DNA from: Gammaproteobacteria bacterium
GTDB lineage: Bacteria; Pseudomonadota; Gammaproteobacteria; Pseudomonadales; Azotimanducaceae
Assembly (NCBI GenBank): GCA_021773565.1
Contig: JAJFJZ010000012.1
Location: 62,001 to 126,000, forward strand
Direction of reading: 5' to 3'
Length of the DNA: 64,000 bases
Shown: piece by piece, positions 59,877 to 62,544 of the stretch
Position numbering within the stretch: the stretch's first letter is position 1
Layout: every line of letters starts with the position of its first letter
Program-made: the position numbers and the translations under genes
Notes under the pieces: model-generated
Told to the model about the DNA's origin: nothing
The model's database searches: none
Seen by the model: only the letters and a program-made list of their open reading frames with translations

Positions 59877-60545
59877 ATGGCTGAAATTGAGCTACATAAT
59901 GTAACCCGCAAATTTGGAAATGGGGCCGAAGCGCTTGGGAATGTGTCGGTCGCATTTGAATCTGGTTCCATGACTTTTTTAACAGGTCATTCAGGTGCTG
60001 GAAAATCTACACTATTAAAATTGCTGTTGCGGCTGGACGTACCAACACGTGGACAGGTGCTCGTTGGTGGAGTGGATATCAGCCAATTGGCGGAAAAATA
60101 CATTCCAGTGTTTCGACAAAATATCGGGGTGGTTTTTCAGGACCACCACCTGCTGGATGAACGCACTGTTTTTGAAAATGTCGCCGTTCCATTGCGTGTT
60201 ATGGGAATGGCAGACCGTGATATTGAGCGTCGTGTTCGAGCGGCACTTTCAGCGGTCAGTCTTCTGGAAAAGGAAAAACTCTATCCCCCGCTCCTTTCTA
60301 CCGGAGAACAACAAAGGGTAGGCATTGCCCGCGCTGTGGTTAATCGGCCCAAACTGTTACTTGCAGATGAGCCTACAGGAAATCTTGATCCTGATTTGTC
60401 TCGCGACATAATGGAGCTGTTTGAGCAGTTCAAGCTGGTGGGTACCACAGTAATTATTGCCAGTCATGATAGAGAACTCATTAACTCCATGGGCAAGCGG
60501 ATAATTGAACTGGATCATGGGCGATTAATGGGAGCAAACTATTGA
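59877..60545 (+). CDS. ftsE: Cell division ATP-binding protein FtsE
   Basis: A 222-residue ABC ATPase that with FtsX controls septal peptidoglycan hydrolases. Walker A is GHSGAGKS (37-44); the signature is LSTGEQQRVGIARAVV; Walker B is LLLADEPTGNLD. LSTGE replaces the usual LSGGE in one residue. It starts 47 bp after ftsY, and ftsX begins inside its last codons. Confidence 0.97.
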   Translation: MAEIELHNVTRKFGNGAEALGNVSVAFESGSMTFLTGHSGAGKSTLLKLLLRLDVPTRGQVLVGGVDISQLAEKYIPVFRQNIGVVFQDHHLLDERTVFENVAVPLRVMGMADRDIERRVRAALSAVSLLEKEKLYPPLLSTGEQQRVGIARAVVNRPKLLLADEPTGNLDPDLSRDIMELFEQFKLVGTTVIIASHDRELINSMGKRIIELDHGRLMGANY

Positions 60546-61534
60546 ACGCGCCAGTCCGGCCTGGCAAAGGGCGCAACAAGGCGCCTAAAAAGGGACCGTG
60601 GTCTTCACCGGTTTCTGCGGGTATTGCGGGCTTCTTTAGAGCACATTCACGCGTGGCAAAGGAAAGTTTTGCTTTTGTTAGCGCGAGATTGGGTACCAGC
60701 TTGCTGGTATGGTTGCTTATTGGAATAGCACTGGGTCTTCCGGCTGGACTATATTTGCTTGAGCGCAATTTGGGTGCGATGAGCGAAGACTGGCAGGGCA
60801 AGCCTGGCATAAGTTTGTACTTCGAGCCCGGAACAAGTGCCGAGATGATCTCTAATGTGCGGGAACAATTAGGGAGGGATGCCCGAATCGGCGATGTTGC
60901 GCTGGTGAGTTCTGAATTGGCACTCGAAGAATTTAAGGCGTATTCAGGCCTGTCGGATGCCCTTGCGGTTATTGAACACAACCCGCTGCCGGATTCCATG
61001 CGCGCTGTTTTGGCAGACAATGTTGAACCATTCCAGATAAAACTTATTTCGGGGTCACTGGCACAATTTCCCGGCGTAAAAGAGGTTGTGGTGGAGCTCA
61101 CCTGGCTGGAAAGAATCACTGCAATTATGCAGTTGGTGTCCCGTCTGGGGATTATTCTTGCTGTCCTGTTCGGGGTAGCGGCAATATTGATTACTGCAAC
61201 TTCTGTGCGACTGGCCATTGAGAGTCGCCTGGAAGAATTAAAGGTGCTCAAACTGGTAGGTGCCACCAATGCCTACATTCGCCGCCCTTTCCTGTATTTT
61301 GGTCTTATCTACGGTATGGGAGGCGGGGTTATCGGAGCCATGCTGGTTAGCCTTAGTATCCAGGTTATCGAGGGGCCTCTGGCTCGATTTATTGGCAGTT
61401 ATGGTGGTGTTTTGGGAATTGTTGGGCTGGATAGCGCCTTTGTGGTCGGAATGCTGGGTGTTGGTGGGCTATTGGGCATTGCTGGAGCCCTGTTATCATC
61501 CAGACAACGCCTTGCAGACTTGCAGGTGGGCTAA
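60542..61534 (+). CDS. ftsX: Cell division membrane protein FtsX
   Basis: A 330-residue four-helix membrane protein, partner of FtsE. A basic N-terminal tail (1-45) precedes the first helix (about 50-73); a periplasmic loop spans about 75-190; three helices follow near 205-225, 250-275 and 295-318. The family motif LEELKVLKLVGATNAYIRRPF is present. The start is TTG at 60542, overlapping the ftsE stop by 4 bp. rpoH follows after 152 bp, which hold a CIRCE operator. Confidence 0.95.
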   Translation: MNAPVRPGKGRNKAPKKGPWSSPVSAGIAGFFRAHSRVAKESFAFVSARLGTSLLVWLLIGIALGLPAGLYLLERNLGAMSEDWQGKPGISLYFEPGTSAEMISNVREQLGRDARIGDVALVSSELALEEFKAYSGLSDALAVIEHNPLPDSMRAVLADNVEPFQIKLISGSLAQFPGVKEVVVELTWLERITAIMQLVSRLGIILAVLFGVAAILITATSVRLAIESRLEELKVLKLVGATNAYIRRPFLYFGLIYGMGGGVIGAMLVSLSIQVIEGPLARFIGSYGGVLGIVGLDSAFVVGMLGVGGLLGIAGALLSSRQRLADLQVG

Positions 61535-61627
61535 TTTATTCGTTTCAGAAGATATTTGTGTCTTTTTAGCGTCAACCAGGCCACTTATCGCCTTTACAGG
61601 CCGCATATCCGGGAACCTTTGCATTTA

Positions 61628-61654
61628 TTAGCACTCTTATCCACAGAGTGCTAA
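61628..61654. promoter_or_regulatory. CIRCE operator (HrcA site) with an embedded DnaA box upstream of rpoH
   Basis: TTAGCACTC (61628-61636) and GAGTGCTAA (61646-61654) are exact inverted repeats and match the CIRCE consensus with its standard 9-bp spacer. The spacer, 61637-61645, reads TTATCCACA, the exact DnaA-box consensus. It lies 32 bp before the rpoH start codon and would sit in the promoter or leader. HrcA itself is not in this window. Confidence 0.92.
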
Positions 61655-61686
61655 TATAGCGATTAATGTTACCGGAGGTATCAATT

Positions 61687-62544
61687 ATGACAACAAGTGT
61701 AATGTCATTAGACAGCCTGGCACCTGGAAAGGACCTGGATGCGTATATTCAGAATGTTCGCAGCTTCCCTATTCTAAGTGCGGAGGAAGAAAAGGTACTT
61801 GCTGAGCGTCTATATTACCATGATGACGTTGATGCAGCGCGCACGCTGGTGTTATCACACCTGCGCTTTGTGGTTCATTTGGCTCGTTCCTATTCCGGTT
61901 ATGGTTTACCACAGGCAGACCTGATTCAGGAAGGTAATGTAGGTCTGATGAAGGCTGTTAAACGCTTTAATCCTGAGGTTGGTGTGCGACTTACCTCGTT
62001 TGCGGTACATTGGATCAAAGCTGAAATGCACGAGTTTATATTACGCAACTGGCGCATCGTCAAAATTGCGACCACCAAGGCACAGCGCAAATTGTTCTTT
62101 AACCTGCGTGGTTCAAAGAAGCGGCTGGGCTGGATGACGCCTGATGAAGTAAGTGCGATGGCTGAAGATCTGGGCGTAGAAGAGAAAACGGTGCTTCAGA
62201 TGGAAGGGCGCCTGGCGTCTCCGGATATGGCTTTTGATGGTTATCAGAGTGATGACGAACTAATTTCAGCACCGGTCCAGTTTTTGGATGACGAAGCTGC
62301 AAACCCTGCTGGTCTTGTAGCGGACCAGGAAACACACGATCAATCTATTGCACATCTGGGAGAGGCGCTAAAAACTCTGGATGACCGAAGCAGGGATATT
62401 TTGTCACAACGCTGGTTGAGCGACTCAAAGAGCACCTTGCACGAACTGGCTGATACTTATCAGGTGTCTGCAGAGCGCATTAGACAACTGGAAAAAAACG
62501 CCATGAAAAAAGTTCGGGCGGTAATTGAAAGCCGGGCAGCGTAA
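61687..62544 (+). CDS. rpoH: RNA polymerase sigma-32 factor
   Basis: A 285-residue heat-shock sigma factor. Region 2 has [42 protein letters not shown]; the diagnostic RpoH box is QRKLFFNLR; region 4 ends with [29 protein letters not shown]. Length matches E. coli sigma-32 (284). ATG at 61687 has GGAGGT seven bases upstream. It has its own regulatory region with a CIRCE/DnaA-box element, so it may be under HrcA and DnaA control in addition to any ftsYEX read-through. Confidence 0.98.

Follow-up and report, generated by a model that had tools for sequence, protein, structure and literature searches.

The repressor HrcA and the activator sigma-32 are as a rule described as two heat-shock systems working side by side. 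The nearest known counterpart of the locus described below is in Geobacter sulfurreducens, for which CIRCE, the HrcA operator, was predicted at rpoH, the gene for sigma-32 (Rodionov et al., 2004; PMC545781). Its arms are perfect, it lies before rpoH (position -51), and groESL belongs to the same HrcA regulon; the case is that of one studied species, and the accessible portions of that paper mention no sigma-E promoter there. Control of rpoH by sigma-E-type factors is known from other bacteria: rpoHP3 serves as a sigma-E reporter in E. coli (PMC2731931), an organism without hrcA (PMC545781), and AlgU regulates rpoH in Pseudomonas aeruginosa (PMC4031085). No CIRCE at rpoH is described in the accessible parts of five further papers (PMC10696704, PMC3224663, PMC3989490, PMC3557214 and PMC6032397). 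A composite of CIRCE and a sigma-E promoter at rpoH was not met in the open-licence literature searched. Permina and Gelfand (2003) may have named CIRCE at rpoH for certain Gammaproteobacteria.

The locus considered here lies in a stretch of 64 kb (the window) from a genome of 4.23 Mb (32 contigs, 98% complete). Like G. sulfurreducens, this organism has perfect CIRCE arms before rpoH and a predicted HrcA regulon that takes in groES. It differs in being a Gammaproteobacterium, in that the rpoH CIRCE lies over a sigma-E-type promoter and is a regular feature of hrcA-positive members of the class sample, and in having no CIRCE (at up to three mismatches) at its hrcA–grpE locus. The promoter resembles rpoH P3 of E. 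coli, which reads GAACTT-N16-TCTGA where the source genome has GGAACCT-N16-TCTTA, with the same N16 and before the same gene, but the rpoH strand of 301 upstream bases of E. coli contains no CIRCE (the best candidate has seven mismatches), and E. coli gave no match in the control search for HrcA. We consider that the 27-bp element is an HrcA operator of rpoH built onto a sigma-E-type promoter, such that HrcA would gate rpoH transcription, and we put the probability of this reading at about 0.78.

The element and its surroundings

It had been claimed for this DNA that a perfect CIRCE at 61628–61654, with TTATCCACA as its spacer, lies 32 bp before rpoH, and the sequence agrees exactly: TTAGCACTC-TTATCCACA-GAGTGCTAA matches the arm pattern TTAGCACTC-N9-GAGTGCTAA with no mismatch, the arms occupying 61628–61636 and 61646–61654 and the spacer 61637–61645 of the + strand. 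It is the only CIRCE-like site with up to three mismatches in the window (shuffle mean 0.04). The gene that follows on the same strand, at 61687–62544, encodes a sigma-32 of 285 aa (TIGR02392 profile match at 400 bits, cut-off 323); its likely start is the ATG at 61687, 3' of a Shine–Dalgarno sequence GGAGG at 61674–61678 and 32 bp past the end of CIRCE. The gene order is ftsE (59877–60545, FtsE profile TIGR02673 above cut-off), ftsX (60542–61534, TIGR00439 at 252.3 bits, just below the cut-off of 255) and then rpoH, all on the + strand. A search for an RNA element at 61400–62000 gave no Rfam match, and that candidate was rejected. The source genome has one RpoH match at E <= 1e-60, unlike many members of its family, in which a closer RpoH is accompanied by a second RpoH-like protein, 54–62% identical to that of the window where listed (as in G024, G025, G034, G046, G051 and G071).

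The original prediction had proposed looking elsewhere in the genome for hrcA and for further CIRCE copies, and both were found. A single hrcA is present, adjoining grpE (PF01628, E 6e-64; 215.5 bits). Genome-wide, CIRCE sites with up to three mismatches number two, one before groES and one before rpoH; the groES site has the same arms and likewise a 9-bp spacer, though with a different sequence, TAGTGCCTA or its complement. An rpoE is also present (equivalog TIGR02939, 312 bits over a cut-off of 236), followed by genes with RseA_N and MucB_RseB domains.

Distribution of CIRCE before rpoH

How widespread is an operator in this position? For the family, 142 genomes had an RpoH match and 130 of these were used (30 loci and 100 more, own genome included), the other 12 having only low-ranking or unlisted RpoH matches; G105, with 31 bases upstream, was dropped, leaving 129. 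For the class, one genome per family was taken, giving 130 with a match and, once the own genome had been set aside, again 129 (the second rpoH copy of G179 was left out). The third set comprised 80 named records, the closest ones by RpoH sequence, and shares at least two records with the family set (apparently G016 = L063 and G114 = L071, from their matching upstream letters).

CIRCE with up to four mismatches precedes rpoH in 106 of the 129 family genomes, own genome included, and in 32 of 36 genera, 39 of the 106 sites being perfect; base-shuffled regions at the same threshold gave 2 in 2,580. In the class sample the count is 93 of 129 (shuffles 3 in 2,580). Among the named records 13 of 80 have an rpoH CIRCE, including Halioglobus, Haliea, Parahaliea and Ketobacter, and none of those within the 80 that are labelled Pseudomonas, Marinobacter or Halomonas has one. 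Alignment of 93 distinct family sites gave 1.59 and 1.74 bits per position for the two arms against 0.10 for the spacer, as befits CIRCE: the arms are conserved in relatives and the spacer is free, with the exception of its third base, to which we return below.

Across the class sample, the site goes with the repressor, being found in 88 of 97 hrcA-positive and five of 32 hrcA-negative genomes (Fisher 2.5e-15; 15 of 35 hrcA-negatives were counted negative by their absence from the positives). Exceptions thus run both ways, nine hrcA-positive genomes having no rpoH CIRCE. In the five genomes of the opposite kind (G230, G214, G260, G163 and G267, with no PF01628 match), hrcA has diverged, has been lost, or is simply not in the assembly. 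Within the family there is no such tracking: hrcA (PF01628) was found in 102 of the 106 genomes with an rpoH CIRCE, the remaining four giving no match, and in 21 of the 23 without. Since the repressor gene has been kept in those 21, the losses in the family concern, on this evidence, the site rather than hrcA. In two genera, g22 and g33, the rpoH CIRCE is absent from six of eight and seven of nine members examined, with hrcA present, which looks like loss of the site in particular lineages. In the rpoH upstream region of G157 (L330), an extra CIRCE-like arm, GAGTGCTAA, stands just before CIRCE, and the arrangement looks like two tandem operators.

Judged by its sequence, the rpoH CIRCE is a genuine HrcA operator and a widespread one. 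The half of the original prediction that concerned HrcA has good support in the sequence data, in the presence of hrcA and in arms conserved in both family and class.

A predicted sigma-E-type promoter overlapping the operator

The larger finding is that operator and sigma-E-type promoter overlap, a feature that the original prediction overlooked. Sigma-E promoters have a GGAACTT-like -35 and, about 16 bp on, a TCNNA-like -10. This description fits GGAACCT-N16-TCTTA at 61612–61639 of the + strand: the -35 (61612–61618) starts 16 bp before CIRCE, and the -10 (61635–61639) straddles the junction of arm 1, which gives it two bases, and the spacer, which gives it three. In the only relative of the same genus that was compared (G019, whose RpoH is 86% identical), GGAACTT and TCTGA stand at the same places.

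In the family, GGAAC at -16 of CIRCE (26 of 106 sites, 13 genera) has the highest positional count of all pentamers between -60 and -6. With a strict motif, GGAAC-N17..19-TCNNA, matches were found in 41 of the 129 upstream regions, where 100 dinucleotide shuffles gave a mean of 0.99 and a maximum of four and the opposite strand gave none. These matches are concentrated where there is an operator, in 40 of 106 regions with CIRCE and in one of 23 without; they overlap CIRCE in 39 regions from 15 genera, and 24 of the motifs start exactly at -16. Corresponding figures are 52 of 93 with CIRCE and two of 36 without for the class, with the motif at -17 to -14 in 43 of the 93, and seven of 13 and 23 of 67 for the named records. 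At the groES CIRCE sites of the source genome and its relatives, GGAAC at -16 was not found in any of the 16 examined (from 30 loci, with eight sites coming from one genus, g33).

Because the -10 reaches three bases into the spacer, a sigma-E-type promoter in this register predicts A as the third base of the otherwise free spacer. This holds: the base is A in 33 of the 34 family sites where GAAC begins at -16 or -15 and in 17 of the 72 others, and in 55 of 60 and 15 of 33 class sites respectively. As the genomes of the family are kin, its Fisher value overstates their independence; the class sample, with a single genome from each family, is the safer of the two. A different layout, apparently arrived at independently, is seen in genus g37, where eight of ten genomes place GGAAC in the CIRCE spacer itself, with TCNAA further downstream. 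Promoter and operator thus overlap there in another register, an argument that holding the promoter where HrcA can reach it serves a function. Among the 23 named records with the motif and no CIRCE, the -35 lies 72–77 nt before the matched RpoH start in 16 (several from the same genera), as compared with 75 in the source genome; this similarity of distance suggests that promoter and operator can be gained or lost independently of each other.

Might the element nevertheless be a plain CIRCE, situated downstream of an ordinary promoter and accompanied by an accidental sigma-E-type match? As many as 66 of the 106 family sites are without the strict motif, and many relatives have no recognisable one; at the eight groES sites of g33, moreover, a sequence resembling TATGATA or TATTATA precedes CIRCE, and HrcA there seems to repress from downstream of an ordinary promoter. 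The motif is also loose when taken alone: the + strand of the window has three matches and the - strand none. The source genome's own rpoE, used as a positive control, gave no strict match in a 3.6-kb locus, which counts against the sensitivity of the motif. An accident would not, however, be expected to produce a peak of GGAAC at a single position in 13 genera, a spacer base tied to it, and the same promoter letters at the same places in the relative of the same genus, and we regard this explanation as rather unlikely.

A second promoter may overlap the operator as well. A predicted sigma-70-type -10, TAATAT (61652–61657, + strand), overlaps the end of arm 2, with whose last three bases it shares TAA. 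AAT after arm 2 completes a TANNNT, found at 102 of the 106 family rpoH sites against five of the 16 groES sites (at +24), and at the same place in 81 of 93 class rpoH sites. A sigma-70 consensus scan of the + strand at 61450–61750 found nothing, TAATAT not being listed. A sigma-70-type promoter at TAATAT is probable, on evidence weaker than that for the sigma-E-type one.

The DnaA-box match in the spacer

The original prediction took a different view of the spacer. As 61637–61645 is a perfect TTATCCACA, the consensus for a DnaA box, HrcA and DnaA were supposed to contest the element, with rpoH responding to heat shock as well as to the state of replication. DnaA reportedly acts at the boxes of E. 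coli rpoH. E. coli K-12 has two of them, TTATTCACA and TTATCCACA, at its sigma-E-type promoter, so that TTATCCACA is found upstream of rpoH in both organisms; in P3 it is reversed and lies between -35 and -10, whereas in the source genome it starts in the -10. Similarly, in Microbulbifer guangxiensis (L138), 189 nt before the rpoH match, TGTGGATAA (the reverse of TTATCCACA) lies between a sigma-E-type -35 and -10 with no CIRCE, an arrangement like that of E. coli P3. Perfect copies of TTATCCACA number two in the window and 56 in the genome, compared with 22 for a reversed control pattern. In the window, DnaA boxes with up to one mismatch are commoner than in shuffled sequence (22 against a mean of 13.6).

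Among the genomes compared, however, a perfect box as CIRCE spacer is peculiar to this one. The relative of the same genus has perfect arms and the spacer TGACTATTA, and a spacer that varies between arms that are kept is most of what the original prediction had itself set as its refutation. Among the 106 family CIRCE sites, only that of the source genome has a spacer within two mismatches of TTATCCACA, the next three being at three; among the 93 class sites, the closest is a single one with two mismatches. The 21-base core was matched with up to two mismatches in none of the 205 other family genomes among 206 (11 of the 206 match with up to three), and no exact copy was found in genome_contigs (84,980 species, the source genome possibly left out). 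Upstream regions of rpoH show no enrichment of DnaA boxes: TTWTNCACA occurred in one of 130 family, one of 129 class and one of 80 named regions, the shuffle means being 2.07, 3.33 and 1.77. Nor is there a second box at the promoter, the nearest other one in the window with up to one mismatch being no closer than about 1.3 kb, so that a single box stands in place of E. coli's pair.

A chance of one in 262,000 had been given for such a spacer. These odds are too long, because spacer positions 1–3 favour T-N-A: column frequencies from 198 further spacers of CIRCE at rpoH, drawn from the family and class sets with G000 left out, give about one in 28,000, and those from the 93 of the 198 in which GAAC begins at -16 or -15 about one in 16,000. 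Furthermore, the site was picked for its match, and rpoH-CIRCE sites are estimated to run into thousands across sequenced genomes. The first three bases of the supposed DnaA box, TTA, double as the end of the sigma-E-type -10; for the remaining bases, coincidence in a single species is the best account of the match. DnaA could well bind to so perfect a box, but the comparisons show no selection for it. In the joint reading, then, the HrcA operator has support, from hrcA and the conserved arms, and the DnaA part has none, the box being neither kept nor enriched. A contest between HrcA and DnaA is very unlikely, and it is hardly to be expected even that the source species recruits DnaA to its rpoH operator as an addition. 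The coincidence is a caution, in that a 9-mer in a 'free' spacer seemed improbable until promoter bias and the sheer number of sites had been taken into account.

A proposed circuit

The elements of an HrcA operator built onto a sigma-E-type promoter can be read from sequence: a conserved operator, hrcA, the promoter motif together with the spacer base linked to it, and rpoE with genes of the rseA and rseB types. HrcA binding, occlusion, start sites and signal logic are what we infer from them. With the sigma-E-type -10 inside the operator, transcription would be expected to start near 61645–61647, around the start of arm 2. HrcA on CIRCE would then cover that -10 and the start, as well as part of the sigma-70-type -10, and as these elements lie in the operator, the bound repressor would exclude RNA polymerase at both promoters; the gate is thus probably also set over sigma-70-driven rpoH transcription. 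A titration model of HrcA activity by GroE is named in the accessible part of PMC6032397. On such a model, unfolded protein would draw GroE away from HrcA, and rpoH would be released with both promoters open, while envelope stress would raise sigma-E output through the same HrcA gate.

That the inverted repeat acts mainly as a hairpin in the 5' leader of the mRNA (an RNA thermometer or stability element) rather than as an operator is scarcely credible: a perfect 9-bp inverted repeat would fold in transcripts starting upstream, but the arms keep the letters of CIRCE at the information content given above, CIRCE goes with hrcA across the class sample, no Rfam match was obtained, and sigma-E-driven transcription is predicted to start inside the element.

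If the HrcA-gated promoter is real, HrcA would sit above sigma-32, and sigma-E would feed into the same operator. For the class at large we lean, with some reserve, towards the view that rpoH is an HrcA target in most hrcA-positive Gammaproteobacteria, and that the operator is a composite in roughly half of them, with a sigma-E promoter running through it that uses the spacer for its -10 or (in another genus) its -35. A stretch of 43 bp would thereby combine information on cytoplasmic misfolding (through HrcA and GroE) and on envelope stress (through sigma-E). E. coli, without hrcA, would on that view have a reduced version of the circuit. For CIRCE itself, it appears that the spacer can carry promoter letters.

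As groES and rpoH alone have CIRCE at up to three mismatches in the source genome, HrcA would reach other heat-shock genes, including the grpE of its own locus, by way of sigma-32. Sigma-32-like promoters with one mismatch are found on the gene strand at two loci, ahead of CIRCE at groES and in the interval from hrcA to grpE (2% of shuffled loci had at least one match, for each locus), and these fit a cascade from HrcA through rpoH to the chaperones.
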